A DNA stretch of 64,000 bases from assembly GCA_027315365.1 (NCBI GenBank), contig DAHUYF010000131.1:1-64000 (forward strand). The letters are read 5' to 3'. The translations under genes and the position numbers were made by a program. The notes under the pieces are model-generated. The model was not told the origin of the DNA, made no database searches, and saw only the letters and a program-made list of their open reading frames with translations. This DNA comes from Rhodospirillales bacterium (GTDB lineage: Bacteria > Pseudomonadota > Alphaproteobacteria > ATCC43930 > CGMCC-115725). Below, in pieces: positions 5,065 to 11,979 of this stretch; the first letter of the stretch is position 1; each line of letters starts with the position of its first letter.

Positions 5065-7206
5065 ATGACCGACAATCCCTTCTTCGAGCCCTGGACGATG
5101 CCGTTCGGATTGCCGCCCTTCGATCGCATCCGGGCGGAGCATTTCCCGCCGGCCTTCGAGCGCGGCATGGCGGAGCATGCCGCCGAGATCGCCGCCATAG
5201 CGCAGAACCCGGAGCCGCCGAGCTTCGCCAACACCGTCGAGGCGCTGGAGCGCAGCGGCCGGCTGCTCACCCGAGTGGGCAGGGTCTTCTCCAACCTCAG
5301 CGCCAGCAACACCAGCGCGGCGCTGGAGGCGGTGGCGCGCGATTACGCGCCGAGGCTCGCCCGGCATCGCCTCGCCATCGCGCTCGATCCCGGGCTCTTC
5401 GCCCGCATCGCCGATCTCCATGCGCGGCGCGATGCGCTCGGCCTGGCGCCCGATCAGCGCCGGCTGCTCGAGCGCCACCAGCTCAATTTCGTGCGCGCCG
5501 GCGCGCGGCTGGCGCCGGCGGCGAAGGCGTGGCTGGCGGCGATCGCGCAACGGCTCGCGACGCTGCACACGCAGTTCGGGCAGAACGTGCTGCATGACGA
5601 GAAAGCCTGGCACCTGGCGCTGGGCGAGGGCGATCTCGCGGGCTTGCCGGATTTCGCTCGCGCCGCCGCCGCCGAGGCGGCGCGCGAGCGCGGCATCGCC
5701 GGCGGCCATGTGGTCACGCTCGCCCGCTCTTCGGTCGAGCCGTTCCTCACCTTCTCGGCGCGACGCGACCTTCGCCGCGCGGTGTTCGACGCCTGGACGC
5801 GGCGCGGCGCGCACGACAATCTGCCGCTGATTCCCGAGATCGCGGCGCTGCGCGCCGAGCAGGCCCGGCTTCTCGGATATGACGACTACGCCGCCTACGC
5901 GCTCGACGACGCCATGGCGAAGGACGCCGCCGCGGTCGAGCGCCTGCTGCTGGCGGTATGGGAGCCGGCCAAGCGCAAGGCCGCCGCCGAGGCGGCCGAG
6001 CTACAGGTGCTGGCGCAGGCCGATGGTCTCAACGGGCCGATCGAGGCCTGGGACTGGCGCTACTATGCGGAGAAGCTGCGGCAGGCGCGCTACGCGCTCG
6101 ACGAGGCGGAACTGAAGCCCTATTTCGCCCTCGACGACCTCGTGCGCGCGGCCTTCGACACCGCGGGGCGGCTCTTCGGCCTCCGTTTCAGCGAGCACCG
6201 CGGCCTGCCGCTCTATCATCCCGACGTGCGCGCCTACGCGGTGAGCGACCGCGAGGGCCGCCCGGTCGGTCTCTTCCTGCACGACAATTTCGCGCGTCCC
6301 GACAAGCGTTCCGGCGCCTGGATGAGCAGCTATCGCGACCAGGAATCCTTCGACGGCGAGGTCGCGCCGATCATCGTCAACAACAACAATTTCGCCAAGG
6401 GCGCGCCGACCCTGCTCAGCTTCGACGAGGCCGAGACGCTGTTCCACGAATTCGGCCATGGCCTGCACGGGCTGCTCAGCCGCGTGCGCTATCCCTCGCA
6501 ATCCGGCACTGCGGTGCGACGCGATTTCGTCGAGTTCCCGTCGCAGATCTTCGAGCATTGGATGTCGGCGCCCGAGACGCTCCGGCGCTACGCTCGGCAT
6601 CACGCGACCGGCGAGAAACTGCCGGAGGAGCTGCTGCGCCGCCTGCTCGCCGCGCGCAACGTCAGCCAGGGATTCGCCACGGTCGAATACACCGCCGCGG
6701 CGCTGTACGATCTCGCGATCCACCGCCGCGCGACGACCGAGCCGCTCGACCCCGTGGATTTCGAGCGCGAGGTGCTGGCGCGCATCGGCATGCCGGCGGC
6801 GATTCCGCTGCGCCACCGCCCGGCGCATTTCCAGCATCTCTTCGCGGGCGGCGGCTATGCCGCGGGCTACTACGCCTATCTCTGGGCGGAGGTGCTCGAT
6901 GCCGACGGCTTTGCCGCCTTCGGCGAGACCGGCGACATCTTCGACCCCGCTCTCGCGGCGCGGCTCCAGCGTATCTACGCCGCCGGCGACACCGAGGACC
7001 CGATGGCGCTCTACACCGCCTTCCGCGGCCGGCCGCCGCTCATCGAGGCGCTGCTGCGCCAGCGCGGGCTGATCGACGCGCCCGTCCAGGGTGGCGCGGC
7101 CGCGATCGCAGCCCTACATTCCTTTCGGGCCGCACACCGCGAGGACACGCCATGCTCGTCGAGCAGATCTGGACCGCCAACAACTATCGTAATTTCAACT
7201 ATCTGA
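5065..7206 (+). CDS. M3-family oligopeptidase (Dcp/OpdA-like)
   Basis: This is a cytoplasmic zinc metallopeptidase that degrades short peptides. It is 713 aa, against about 680 for relatives, and the extra length is the tail overlapping the next gene. The zinc motif is H461-E462-F-G-H465 in LFHEFGHGLHGLL, preceded by GAWMSSYRDQESF and NNNNFAKG and followed by DFVEFPSQIFEHW, all M3 landmarks. The C-terminal GGGYAAGYYAYLWAEVLDAD block is present. Its last 55 bp overlap the start of the MBL-fold gene at 7152 in another frame. Dcp and OpdA cannot be told apart here. Confidence 0.93.
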   Translation: MTDNPFFEPWTMPFGLPPFDRIRAEHFPPAFERGMAEHAAEIAAIAQNPEPPSFANTVEALERSGRLLTRVGRVFSNLSASNTSAALEAVARDYAPRLARHRLAIALDPGLFARIADLHARRDALGLAPDQRRLLERHQLNFVRAGARLAPAAKAWLAAIAQRLATLHTQFGQNVLHDEKAWHLALGEGDLAGLPDFARAAAAEAARERGIAGGHVVTLARSSVEPFLTFSARRDLRRAVFDAWTRRGAHDNLPLIPEIAALRAEQARLLGYDDYAAYALDDAMAKDAAAVERLLLAVWEPAKRKAAAEAAELQVLAQADGLNGPIEAWDWRYYAEKLRQARYALDEAELKPYFALDDLVRAAFDTAGRLFGLRFSEHRGLPLYHPDVRAYAVSDREGRPVGLFLHDNFARPDKRSGAWMSSYRDQESFDGEVAPIIVNNNNFAKGAPTLLSFDEAETLFHEFGHGLHGLLSRVRYPSQSGTAVRRDFVEFPSQIFEHWMSAPETLRRYARHHATGEKLPEELLRRLLAARNVSQGFATVEYTAAALYDLAIHRRATTEPLDPVDFEREVLARIGMPAAIPLRHRPAHFQHLFAGGGYAAGYYAYLWAEVLDADGFAAFGETGDIFDPALAARLQRIYAAGDTEDPMALYTAFRGRPPLIEALLRQRGLIDAPVQGGAAAIAALHSFRAAHREDTPCSSSRSGPPTTIVISTI

Positions 7207-7943
7207 TCGCCTGCCCTGAAACCGGCGAGGCGCTGGCGGTCGATCCCCTCGACCATGGGAAATGCCTGGCCTCCGCCAAGGCGAAGGGCTGGACCATCAC
7301 CCAGATCCTCAACACCCACGAGCACCATGACCACACCGGCGGCAATGCGGCGATGATCGCCGCGACCGGCGCCAAGCTGCTGGCGCATGCCAATGCCAAG
7401 GACAGGATCGCCGGCATCGATCGCGGGCTCGAGGCGGGGGACGTGATCCGGGTCGGCAAGACGGTCGAGCTGGAAAGCCTGGACACGCCGGGTCACACCA
7501 TGAGCCATGTCTGCCTGATGGCGCGGGGCGACACGCCGGCGCTGTTCTGCGGCGATACGCTGTTCAATGCCGGCGCCGGCAACTGCCACAATGGCGGCCA
7601 TCCGAGCGAGCTCTACAACACCTTCTCCCGCCAGCTCGCCAAGCTGCCGGAGACGACGCTGATCTATCCCGGCCACGATTACATCGCGCGCAATCTTGCC
7701 TTCACCCTCGACCGCGAGCCCGACAATGCCAAGGCCAAGGCGCTGCTGCCGGGGGTGGAGAAGCAGGATCCGGCGCGGGCGCTGGTCACCACGCTCGCCC
7801 TGGAGCGGGAGATCAACGCCTTCTTCCGGCTCGCCAGCCCGTCGGTGATCAAGCGGCTGCGCGAAGCCTTTCCCGATCTGCCCGAGGCGCTCGACGAGAA
7901 GACGGTATTCCTGAAGCTGCGCGAGCTGCGCAACAAGTGGTGA
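7152..7943 (+). CDS. MBL-fold hydrolase, hydroxyacylglutathione hydrolase (glyoxalase II)-like
   Basis: The product is 263 aa. The metallo-beta-lactamase signature T55-H-E-H-H-D-H61 and the downstream ligands in DTPGHT, FCGDTLF and YPGHDY are those of glyoxalase II, which hydrolyses S-lactoylglutathione to lactate and glutathione. The C-terminal part (about 180-263) is the helical extension of that family. Its ATG lies inside the 3' end of the M3 peptidase gene and is preceded by GAGG. Other acyl-glutathione thioesters are possible substrates. Confidence 0.88.
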
Positions 7944-7950
7944 CGGCCGG

Positions 7951-8961
7951 GTGATCCCTCTCTCCGTCCTCGATCTCTCGCCGATCATCGCCGGCGGCGA
8001 TGCGAGCCAGGCGTTGCGCAACACGCTCGATCTCGCCCGCCATGCCGAGCGCTGGGGCTATCGGCGCTATTGGCTCGCCGAGCATCACAACATGCCCGGC
8101 ATCGCCAGCGCCGCCACCGCGGTGGTGATCGGGCATGTCGCCGGCGGCACCTCGACCATCCGTGTCGGCGCCGGCGGCATCATGCTGCCCAACCATGCGC
8201 CGCTGGTGATCGCCGAGCAGTTCGGCACGCTGGCGGCGCTTTATCCCGGCCGCATCGATCTCGGCCTCGGCCGCGCGCCCGGCACCGATCAGCTTGCCGC
8301 CCGCGCGCTGCGGCGCACTCTCGCCGGCGACGAGGATGATTTTCCGCAAAGCGTCGTCGAGCTGATAGGCTATTTCGCGCCGGTCGAGCCGGGGCAGCGT
8401 CTGCGCGCGGTGCCCGGCGCCGGCCTCGACGTGCCGGTCTGGATCCTGGGCTCGAGCCTCTACGGCGCCCAGCTCGCCGCGGCGCTTGGCCTGCCCTTCG
8501 CCTTCGCCTCGCATTTCGCGCCCGGCCAGATGATGACCGCGCTCGAGCTCTACCGCAGCCGCTTCCGCCCGTCCGAGCAGGGCGGCCGGCCGCATGTCAT
8601 GCTCGGCCTCAACGTCTTCGCCGCCGAGAGCGATGCCGCGGCGCGGCGCCTCTTCACCTCGCTCCAGCAGGCCTTCGTCAATCTGCGCCGCGGCCAGCCC
8701 GGGCCGCTGCCGCCGCCGGTCGACGACATCGAGGCGCTGCTCTCGCCGCTGGAGCGCTCGATGCTGGCGCAGTCGCTGTCCTGCGCGGTGGTGGGCTCGC
8801 CCGAGACGGTGCGGCAGGGGCTCGCGGCCTTCGTCGCGCGCACCGGCGCCGACGAGATCATGGTCACGGCGCAGATCTTTGACCACGCCGCGCGGCTGCG
8901 CTCGTTCGAGATCACGGCGGCGGCGCAGGACGAGCCTTTGGCCGGGGCGGGGCGGCGATGA
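7951..8961 (+). CDS. LLM-class flavin-dependent oxidoreductase
   Basis: The product is 336 aa with a GTG start 7 bp after the previous stop. It is a bacterial-luciferase-like TIM barrel of the MsnO8/YhbW type: [12 protein letters not shown] at the start, [17 protein letters not shown] (the AEHH segment), [39 protein letters not shown], and a C-terminal [15 protein letters not shown]. Such enzymes use FMNH2 and O2, and the substrate here is unknown. It couples to the next gene through an ATGA overlap. Confidence 0.92.
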
Positions 8962-9698
8962 TCGAAGAGACGTTGGACATCGCCTCCCGGGACGGCGCCA
9001 TGGAAACCTTCCTTTGCCGTCCCGAGCGCGGCGGTCCGTTTCCGCCGGTGCTGTTCCTGATGGATGCGCCGGGCATCCGCGAAGAACTCCGCGACATGGT
9101 GCGCCGCCTCGCTACCGTCGGCTACGTCGTGCTGCTCCCCAACCTCTATTACCGGGCCGGCCGCGACACGACCTATGGCCCGGACGTGCTCACCGAGGGC
9201 AGCGCCGAGCACAAGCGCATGCGTGCGGTGCGTACCAGGATGACCATCCCGCCGGTGATGGAGGACGTTGCGGCGATGATGGCGTTTCTCGCCCGGCGCG
9301 CCGAGGCGCGGGCGGGGCCGGTCGGCTGCCATGGCTACTGCATGAGCGGCCCCTATGCGCTGGCGGCGGCGGCGCGATATCCCGACCGCATCGCCGCCGC
9401 CGCCTCGTTCTACGGCACCTGGCTGGTCAGCGACGCCGAAGACAGCCCGCATCTCTCGTTCGGCAAGGTGCGCGGCGAGCTCTACGTCGCCTGCGCCGAA
9501 CATGACAATCTCGCGCCGCTGCCCATGGTCGAGGAGCTGCGCCGCCGCTTCGAGGGGGCGCGTGCCGCGGGCGAGATCGAGCTCTATGCCGGCGTCCATC
9601 ACGGCTTCGCCTTCCCGCAGCGCTGGTGCTACGACAAGCCCGCCGCGGAGCGGCATTGGGAACGGCTGATCGCGCTCTACCGACGGCGGTTGGGGTGA
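8958..9698 (+). CDS. dienelactone hydrolase family protein
   Basis: The 246-aa alpha/beta hydrolase has the cysteine nucleophile of the DLH family in GYCMSG (C128), a later acid in CAEHD and the histidine in GVHHGF. The family hydrolyses dienelactone in chloroaromatic breakdown, but most members have unknown substrates. The ATG overlaps the stop of the flavin-dependent oxidoreductase gene by 4 bp, so the two are probably made together. An oxidation-then-ester-hydrolysis pair is an inference. Confidence 0.9.
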
Positions 9699-9772
9699 GA
9701 TCGGTTGCGCGGTCCGATCGGGGCTTCTAAGCCGGCGCGCGGCGCGAACCCGGGAAAGCAAAGGAGAGGGCG

Positions 9773-10699
9773 GTGAAAGCGGTGCTGCTGATGAAGCATG
9801 GCGGGCCGGAGATGCTGCGCTATGGCGAGGCGCCGGACCCGGTGGCGGGACCGGGCGATGTGGTGGTCGACATCCACGCCGCCAGCGTCAACGCCGCCGA
9901 CTACAAGGTGCGGCTGGGCGGCGGCCGCTACACGCTCACCCAATTTCCGCACATCCTCGGGCGCGACTTCTCCGGCGTGGTCAGCGCGCTGGGCGCCGGC
10001 GTCGGCGATCTCGCGATCGGCGATGCGGTGTTCGGGGTTACCGAGCAGGGCGTCGAAGGCGCCTATGCCGAGAAGATCGCCATCAAGGCGGCGATCGTCG
10101 CCCGCAAGCCCGATCGTCTCGGCCATGACCAGGCGGCGGCCGTGGCGCTGACCGGGCTCACCGCTCTCTGGGCGGTCGAGGACACGGCGCGGCTCAAGCC
10201 CGGCGAGACCATCTTGGTCCATGGCGGCGCCGGCGGCGTCGCCGGTTTCGCCATCCAGCTCGCCAAGCATCTCGGCGCCCGCGTGATCACCACCGCCAGC
10301 GCCGGCAACCATGTCTATGTGCGCGATCTCGGCGCCGACCAGGTGATCGACTACAACGCCGAGGATTTCGCCAAGGCGGTCTCCGGCTGCGACGTGGTGT
10401 TCGACACGGTGGGCGGCGCGGTGCAGGTCGCCTCCTATGCCGTGCTGAAGCCCGGTGGCAGGCTGGTCTGGATCGCGCCGGCGCCGGAGGGCTTCAAGCC
10501 CTCCCGCCAGGACGTGGCGACGCTCCGCCCGAACGTTATCCGCGACCGCACCCATCTCGAGCGGATCCTGGCGCTGCTCGCGGAGGGTGCGGTCCGCCCG
10601 CCCGCCATCGTCCACTACAAGCTCGCGGACGCCGTCGAGGCCCATCGTGTCAGCGAGGCGCGCCACCTCAGGGGCAAGCTTGTCTTCGACATCCGCTGA
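9773..10699 (+). CDS. zinc-independent MDR-family alcohol dehydrogenase / quinone oxidoreductase
   Basis: The product is 308 aa. The GTG start follows AAGGAGAGGGCG, a strong Shine-Dalgarno. A GroES-like N-terminal domain (about 1-115, with ILGRDFSGVV) is followed by a Rossmann domain with the NADP motif VHGGAGGVAGFAIQLAKHLGA and a substrate-free zinc site, as in NADPH:quinone reductases. Substrate is unknown. A 74-bp gap separates it from the dienelactone hydrolase gene. Downstream lies the gene-free operator array, so it could be controlled by the TetR gene at 11341 (speculative). Confidence 0.88.
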   Translation: MKAVLLMKHGGPEMLRYGEAPDPVAGPGDVVVDIHAASVNAADYKVRLGGGRYTLTQFPHILGRDFSGVVSALGAGVGDLAIGDAVFGVTEQGVEGAYAEKIAIKAAIVARKPDRLGHDQAAAVALTGLTALWAVEDTARLKPGETILVHGGAGGVAGFAIQLAKHLGARVITTASAGNHVYVRDLGADQVIDYNAEDFAKAVSGCDVVFDTVGGAVQVASYAVLKPGGRLVWIAPAPEGFKPSRQDVATLRPNVIRDRTHLERILALLAEGAVRPPAIVHYKLADAVEAHRVSEARHLRGKLVFDIR

Positions 10700-11233
10700 A
10701 CGCGGCAGGGCCGGCCTGCGGGGTGTCGGTCGGGCGCGCTGCGCCTTCGCTCAAGGAGCGAGGCGCGGTTCACTCTTTGCGAGGTCGGCTCCATTTTTCG
10801 GCCGGTGCGGCGATTCTATGCGACCGGTCATTTGCATCGTCACGCCCCCGATTGGATCTTGGCAGCCGGCGGGGCGCTGCTGTCGGGGCTCGGATTGCCG
10901 CCGTTACGCCCAAGTTCAAGAAATGAATTTAGACTCATAACAACCAGCCCGGTTCTTCTTTCGAGCCTTGATGGCGCCACGCCGCCGCATCGCCGCCGGG
11001 AAGCCAGCGCGGCGAGTGTCTGGCCTCAAAAAAAATGAAACTATGCTCACTGCCGCCCTGCTCAGCTCGCCGGTGACTGGCGGCGCGGTCGGCGCGCGGC
11101 GTTCGCTCTCGGTGAGGCGAGCGCGCATCCATGGCGCCGCCAAGTGCCGCGCGCTCAAGAAATGAGGTTGGATTCATTATCGGGGGACCTCGACTCATAC
11201 CGGCGGCTATACTTTCCTGCCGAGCGCCCGTCC

Positions 11234-11275
11234 TGTCCGGCGGGAGCGATCCGCCTCCCGCGGCCCCGCCGGACA
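11234..11275. other. 11-bp perfect inverted repeat inside the operator array
   Basis: TGTCCGGCGGG at 11234-11244 is exactly complementary to CCCGCCGGACA at 11265-11275, with a 20-nt loop. No T-run follows on either strand. It lies between the fourth and fifth TGA-N8-TCA sites. It could be an RNA hairpin or a second protein site. Confidence 0.45.
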
Positions 11276-11286
11276 CAGCGCTTGAC

Positions 11287-11335
11287 TCAAGAAATGAACC
11301 CTGGCTCACTTAGTGAGGCTCAATTCACTTCTTGG
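11287..11335. promoter_or_regulatory. paired inverted operator abutting the tetR start
   Basis: The fifth and sixth sites face each other and share a central TCACTTAGTGA palindrome (11306-11316), giving an inverted repeat of nearly 50 bp that ends 5 bp before the ATG at 11341. A TTGACT hexamer at 11282-11287 could serve as a -35. Binding here would block transcription or initiation of the tetR gene, so autoregulation is likely. Confidence 0.6.
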
Positions 11336-11340
11336 TCCGG

Positions 11341-11979
11341 ATGGCCTATCGGCGCACCCCTGCGGTCGTCTCCCGGTTGGAGGATAAGCGCGCGCGCATC
11401 CTCGCTGCCGCGCGCTCGCTCGTCGCCGAGGGCGGCTGGCGGCGCGCGCATATCGCGACGGTGGCCGAAACGGCCGGCATGGCGACGGGGACGGTCTATC
11501 GCTACTTCCCGTCCAAGGCGGAGCTGTTCGCCGAGGTTCTGACCAATGTCTCGCGCCGCGAGCGTGACGTCGTCGCCGCCATCGTCGATGGCGACGGCAG
11601 CCCGGCGGCGCGGCTGGCAGGTGCGGTGAGCGCTTTCGCCAAACGAGCCCTCCGCGGCCGCAGGCTCGCCTATGCCCTGATCGCCGAGCCCTGCGATCCC
11701 GAGATCGACCGGGCCCGGCTGTTCTGGCGCGCCGCGCTCGGCGAGGAGTTCGTGCGGCTCGTCCGGATCGGCCAGGATCAGGGCGCGTTCCGCCGCGGCG
11801 ATCCGCGCCTGGCCGCGTCCTGCGTGGTCGGCGCCTTGATGGAGGCGCTGGTCGGGCCGCACGCTCCCGACCCCATCGAGGATGATGCCACGGCGGAACG
11901 GCTCGTCGCCGAGGTCACGGAAGCCTGCCTGGCGATCGTCACCCGGCTGCCGGCGCGCGGCATCGGAAGGATCGCATGA
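11341..11979 (+). CDS. TetR/AcrR-family transcriptional regulator
   Basis: The product is 212 aa from the ATG. The N-terminal helix-turn-helix (about residues 12-58) contains ILAAARSLVAEGGW, HIATVAETAGMATGTVYRYFPSKAELF, a textbook TetR DNA-binding domain. The C-terminal ligand domain is divergent and gives no clue to the effector. A TTG at 11332 is in frame but lies inside the operator and has no Shine-Dalgarno. The operator nearly abuts the ATG, so the mRNA may be leaderless or very short-leadered. It converges with argG, 27 bp away. Confidence 0.92.
   Translation: MAYRRTPAVVSRLEDKRARILAAARSLVAEGGWRRAHIATVAETAGMATGTVYRYFPSKAELFAEVLTNVSRRERDVVAAIVDGDGSPAARLAGAVSAFAKRALRGRRLAYALIAEPCDPEIDRARLFWRAALGEEFVRLVRIGQDQGAFRRGDPRLAASCVVGALMEALVGPHAPDPIEDDATAERLVAEVTEACLAIVTRLPARGIGRIA

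Follow-up and report, generated by a model that had tools for sequence, protein, structure and literature searches.

Why a TetR-type repressor gene should be preceded by several copies of what appears to be its own operator is the question raised by positions 10700-11340 of the window (the whole 64-kb stretch of DNA analysed). This region, array A, lies between a zinc-type oxidoreductase gene (end 10699) and the TetR gene (ATG 11341). The first-pass annotation had described it as some 640 bp free of genes and holding six TGA-N8-TCA sites. Inspection of open reading frames bore out the first point, only chance-like frames and no convincing gene being found in 10700-11340. The sites are likewise real: the TCAAGAAATGA-N8-TCA form is present in three exact copies, two of the others are close variants, one of them inverted, and the remaining one is degenerate. 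This last site, at 10751, carries two mismatches, CGA replacing TGA, so that it is not strictly TGA-N8-TCA and is better described as a degenerate double copy. The first-pass count also needs correcting, since the sites at 11287 and 11314 together form one 49-bp double operator (11287-11335) whose halves are related by two-fold symmetry. The features are listed below with scores from a matrix derived from other species; operator roles are predicted.

10751..10801, + strand: A1, degenerate double-operator copy (matrix 12.4; best partner half at the canonical offset of 21 among 21 offsets)
10916..10937, + strand: A2, extra operator TCAAGAAATGAATTTAGACTCA (matrix 34.5, the top score in array A)
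11028..11049, + strand: A3, extra operator with arm AAAAAAAATGA (matrix 20.7; no partner half at the canonical offset)
11155..11176, + strand: A4, extra operator TCAAGAAATGAGGTTGGATTCA (matrix 24.9; partner half at offset 21 degraded)
11282..11287, + strand: -35-like TTGACT adjoining the proximal operator, a putative promoter element judged from sequence
11287..11308, + strand: A5, first half of the putative autoregulatory double operator (matrix 29.2)
11314..11335, - strand: A6, inverted second half, CCAAGAAGTGA-N8-TCA with one mismatch (matrix 22.0), ending 5 bp before the TetR ATG
11341..11979, + strand: TetR-family repressor gene, 212 aa (Pfam TetR_N 5.6e-15; ATG at 11341, TTG at 11332 also possible)

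The array A sites were confirmed to be real and far beyond chance. TGA-N8-TCA occurs eight times in the window, against 5.6 expected over its whole length, and five of these occurrences fall within 10924-11327. The other-species matrix gave six readings of at least 20 in the region, corresponding to five distinct palindromes, and a maximum of 11.7 in the rest of the window, while 1000 dinucleotide shuffles of array A gave no reading of at least 20. The G+C content of 10700-11340 is 64%, compared with 69% for the window.

Structured RNA was rejected as an account of array A. An Rfam search gave three matches with E of 1.5 to 4.2, none of which came near its gathering score. The 641-nt region had a folding z-score of -2.98 relative to 20 shuffles, but the N8 centres judged by eye (A1 and A5/A6) are not complementary between the two halves, and a protein-binding site therefore fits better than a hairpin RNA.

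The product of the downstream gene belongs to the TetR family, with a TetR_N (PF00440) match of 5.6e-15 and 55.3 bits against a cut-off of 24. Among NCBIfam models, 17 of TetR type were matched, the best at 47.9 bits against a cut-off of 280, and by sequence the closest protein of known structure is 3he0, a distantly related TetR (E 2.5e-12). The TetR has homologues of 75% identity in two Hyphomicrobiaceae MAGs (loci L047 and L048); matches in 68 plasmid records were every one below 60% identity. Palindromes of the same kind lie directly upstream of TetR homologues in alpha-, beta- and gammaproteobacteria and in actinobacteria, as classed by record title. Under a strict rule (TGA-N8-TCA plus arm, at most 110 bp upstream of the TetR start), 33 of the best 80 of 116 homologue loci carry a site, 17 of them two and none more. 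The 47 loci missed comprise 46 actinobacterial ones, by record title, and L049; seven of eight misses inspected have a near-palindrome that fails the rule. The matrix reached at least 20 near the TetR start in 49 of the 80 loci, a figure to be read with its training on 50 sites from upstream of these same homologues. The present genome was outside that training, and its array sites rank top in the genome. Across 385 genomes of the class, five have the TetR at E <= 1e-45, this genome included, and all of the other four carry two palindromes beside the start codon (orientation checked).

A characterized relative by setting is PA3973 of Pseudomonas aeruginosa, a TetR encoded beside the aidB homologue PA3972. 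The available text of that study describes two 14-bp palindromes in the PA3973 promoter, reports no binding to a fragment from which one palindrome and part of the second were missing, and proposes autorepression (PMC9736018). PA3973 is also named among motility and biofilm regulators in the available part of a further report (PMC13086498). Because the other-species matrix finds the array A sites and the PA3973 promoter has such palindromes, the sites in all likelihood serve the downstream TetR gene as operators, as the first-pass annotation had proposed. Operator identity is in this sense well supported.

The group of repressors to which this operator belongs can be narrowed further. An AidB-type acyl-CoA dehydrogenase gene adjoins the TetR gene in all five loci scanned (L047, L049, L054, L056 and L066), with NF008594 scores of 448 to 521 bits, below the model cut-off of 545, and an AidB setting seems to be common to many of these TetR homologues. 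On account of these AidB neighbours and the PA3973 palindromes, the array motif appears to be the operator recognised by repressors of an AidB-associated TetR type. The TetR studied here has the double TGA-N8-TCA operator in its own promoter expected of that type (11287-11335; 29.2 and 22.0). It does not have aidB in the same cluster, the next gene being argG, which is convergent. At E <= 1e-60 the genome contains a single AidB match; it is encoded on contig C19 and shares 49% identity with its L047 counterpart. A weak operator-like palindrome, TGAATCCTGATTCC (1340-1369 of locus L142; score 17.4), precedes this aidB by about 100 bp and overlaps the start of a divergent SDR-like gene, so named by eye. 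Ten other aidB loci in genomes of the family, lacking the TetR at E <= 1e-30, had no operator-like palindrome scoring at least 10. Three of 489,566 positions in a background partly chosen for resemblance reach 17, and the palindrome on C19 is therefore only a lead.

The first-pass annotation had also raised the possibility of a site family dispersed in the genome and suggested a genome-wide scan. The 22-bp form TCAAGAANTGA-N8-TCA occurs three times in the 4.97-Mb genome, always in array A (10916, 11155 and 11287). With up to two mismatches allowed, 22 places were found (three exact, four with one mismatch and 15 with two). All seven exact and one-mismatch places belong either to array A or to another array, B, which lies on contig C110 (29583-29865) and has three strong units, B1 to B3. 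The two-mismatch places are divided between the arrays (4 of 15) and elsewhere (11 of 15); a reversed control pattern gave six places in all. A profile, R1, built from 11 sites of both arrays recovered at E <= 10 only those 11 (150 of 264 first-look candidates scored). Dispersal thus amounts to the one second array found, and that array is not in a recognisable promoter.

The intergenic stretch holding array B is about 490 bp long and is bounded by the 3' ends of two convergent genes, polA and one for an NRAMP-like transporter, both identified from their translations without a family search. The units of array B are spaced by 133 and 128 bp, compared with the 112, 127 and 132 bp separating A2 to A5, and score 34.0, 31.4 and 28.6 (B1, B2 and B3) with the other-species matrix, shuffles (1000 dinucleotide) giving at most one reading of at least 20 each. 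A2, B1 and B2 score above the proximal A5, and B3 just below it. No convincing open reading frame was found in array B, only chance-like frames. A sigma-70 scan gave no promoter match in either array, and it also missed the proximal promoter of array A. Scanning for terminators gave three terminator-like sites in array B, against a shuffle average of 0.5; one, located between B1 and B2, is a hairpin with a T run and lies on the strand read from polA (positions 5801-5782, that is 5782-5801 of locus L010). The one Rfam match in B, to CC3513, a Caulobacter sRNA, covers the full model and extends across the array (L010 5809-5998, + strand), but its 19.4 bits (E 0.34) fall short of the family's gathering score of 40. 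In the sister genome G017 only about 10 bp separate polA from the NRAMP-like gene. That genome also has, between oxidoreductase and argG, about 4 kb of other sequence replacing the TetR gene and array A (6688-10837 of its locus L170), marking this as a variable locus.

The seven extra units (A1-A4 and B1-B3) were compared with the proximal double operator by seeking the best reverse-strand partner half among 21 offsets. The best offsets were 21, 19, 15 and 21 for A1 to A4 and 21, 21 and 22 for B1 to B3, so that six of seven lie within 19-22, close to the 20 and 21 of L047 and L048. The chance of at least six of seven falling in a four-offset window is about 3e-4 (calculated by hand), the window having been picked after the data were seen. 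A perfect double operator in each unit was rejected, as offset 19 of A2 is nearly tied with 26 and the best offset of A3 is 15. Partner halves score positively only in B2 (11.9) and are degraded in the remaining units, and affinity for these units may be lower as a result. The proximal operator and those of L047 and L048 share TTGACTCAAG and an adjoining TTGACT, both missing from all seven extra units; even the shorter TTGAC, present at A5, was found at the operator edge in none of the seven. No detectable spacer similarity emerged when nine spacers or flanks and the 5' end of the TetR gene, ten segments in all, were compared with one another in both orientations, no pair falling in the best 3% of 200 shuffles, and tandem duplication of a unit of about 130 bp was rejected on this basis. 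The sole hint of it is a 45-nt stretch, 76% identical, shared by B1 and B2 and taking in the operator with some flank.

In most of the homologues compared there is one operator, single or double, at the start codon, which agrees with the first-pass remark that the number here is high for a TetR gene. The present genome keeps this start-codon operator (11287-11335) and adds four upstream copies in A and three in B. Searching whole genomes with a second profile, R2, built from other-species operators, gave one to three matches in each of six other TetR-bearing genomes, all at the TetR locus by coordinates, and none in the TetR-less relatives G017, G019 and G011, the number of scored candidates being capped at 150 in each genome. 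Of the sites in the present genome (G000), R2 recovers only four at E <= 1, and weaker extra sites in relatives could therefore be missed. Strict uniqueness was rejected. Three of the best 80 of 116 homologue loci have sites of at least 20 away from the TetR start, namely L049 and L054, with two palindromes each near aidB, and L055, with one further operator at -189 from the TetR start. Locus L054 is from Reyranella, its two palindromes lying between TetR and aidB (5625-5680) with a single divergent one upstream of TetR. A one-mismatch search for the single site matched 13 of 39 genomes of the family, none of which, other than this one, showed an array like A or B. The exact paired pattern was found in one of 385 class genomes, this one, in none of a species genome collection that may exclude this genome, and in no viral contig. 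These data support an operator count that is unusual among the relatives compared; with no similar array found in a relative, conservation of the arrays is not demonstrable.

The reading we favour, with moderate confidence, is that autorepression of the TetR gene works through the proximal double operator and that the extra units are promoterless auxiliary or decoy sites lowering the level of free repressor. By comparison with PA3973, the operator at 11287-11335 would be the autoregulatory site of this TetR family, and its occupation by repressor would mask the promoter, switching off the TetR gene itself. Further copies at 10751, 10916, 11028 and 11155, and the three in array B, would act as binding sites only, having no -35-like element and, at B, no recognised downstream gene. 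They would hold TetR in reserve, lower free repressor and so shift or buffer the set point of autorepression; the upstream copies in array A might in addition raise occupancy at the promoter. This reading is favoured because the first halves are strong, the promoter element is missing and no gene is recognised at B; it is from the last two that we infer a decoy role. Points against it are that the sigma-70 scan misses the proximal promoter as well, that B contains the sub-threshold CC3513 match and that most second halves are degraded. That dedicated arrays evolved as a built-in sponge setting the response threshold of one autorepressor is a speculative extension, and we consider it rather doubtful.

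Cooperative or looped repression, in which TetR at the upstream A units, perhaps also at B, would strengthen repression through a bridge to the proximal operator, was suggested in the first-pass annotation and appears unlikely. The left arms of A1 to A5 are all oriented towards the TetR gene, four units are no more than 550 bp from the promoter, and the double form of the operator points to binding by more than one dimer. On the other side, the A1-A5 spacings of 165, 112, 127 and 132 bp are neither constant nor whole multiples of a helical turn, array B between convergent genes is not readily explained, and bridging is not the usual mode of TetR-family proteins, most of which bind as single dimers or as dimer pairs.

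We give similarly low weight to the copies being passive, that is, duplicated by chance and decaying without function. Degradation of most second halves and the lack of arrays in any other genome searched would fit, as would the 308 ChIP-seq peaks of PA3973, 169 of them in gene bodies according to the available text, which suggest that such repressors tolerate many sites (PMC9736018). However, first halves mostly near or above the score of the working site, next to spacers without detectable similarity, would not be expected of neutral recent duplicates, and the pattern is present at two separate loci. It is improbable that array B regulates an unannotated small RNA or forms a roadblock between the convergent polA and NRAMP-like transcripts: the hairpin between B1 and B2 and the CC3513 match could point that way, but the match is far below the family threshold and B has neither a sigma-70 match nor a convincing open reading frame. 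Spread of a small mobile element carrying the operator, compatible with the 490 bp present here in place of about 10 bp in G017 and with the B1/B2 match, is very improbable, as only two loci were found in the genome, the spacers lack similarity, no inverted repeats were found bounding B and no target-site duplication was evident by eye.

What is new here is the presence, beyond the known single or double operator, of extra operator copies in two arrays. To our knowledge the literature on decoy sites consists largely of models or engineered circuits, and natural inert PhoB sites have reportedly been described in E. coli (PMC10294691). Two compact natural arrays of one repressor's operator, one of them at a position nearly devoid of sequence in a sister genome, would offer a clean test of titration as a selected regulatory device, and the operator type concerned is apparently tied to an AidB-associated TetR group that, by record titles, occurs in Proteobacteria and actinobacteria.

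Among the closest known systems are L047 and L048, which have a TetR of 75% identity and a double operator at the same place with TTGACTCAAG; unlike the present genome they have one double operator only, and in L047 the AidB-type gene is directly downstream. PA3973 is likened to this TetR by operator and by the gene setting of its homologues, both being TetR-family proteins with two TGA-N8-TCA palindromes in their own promoters. The ChIP-seq motif given for PA3973, SAAGRNMTGAACG, and the proximal site of the present genome, CAAGAAATGAACC, have 12 of 13 positions in common, while the gap between palindromes is 5 bp here and 11 bp in the PA3973 promoter as described in the available text (PMC9736018). 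The present system differs in having no aidB after the TetR gene and in having its operators in two arrays, compared with 308 peaks genome-wide for PA3973. The arrays also resemble engineered decoy circuits, in which gene-less operator copies are able to compete for an autorepressor; in a LacI system of this kind, decoys are reported in the available text to raise expression of the auto-repressed gene (PMC7505660), and a similar effect would be predicted for the arrays. Such decoys are plasmid-built, whereas the arrays described here are natural, chromosomal and putative decoys.
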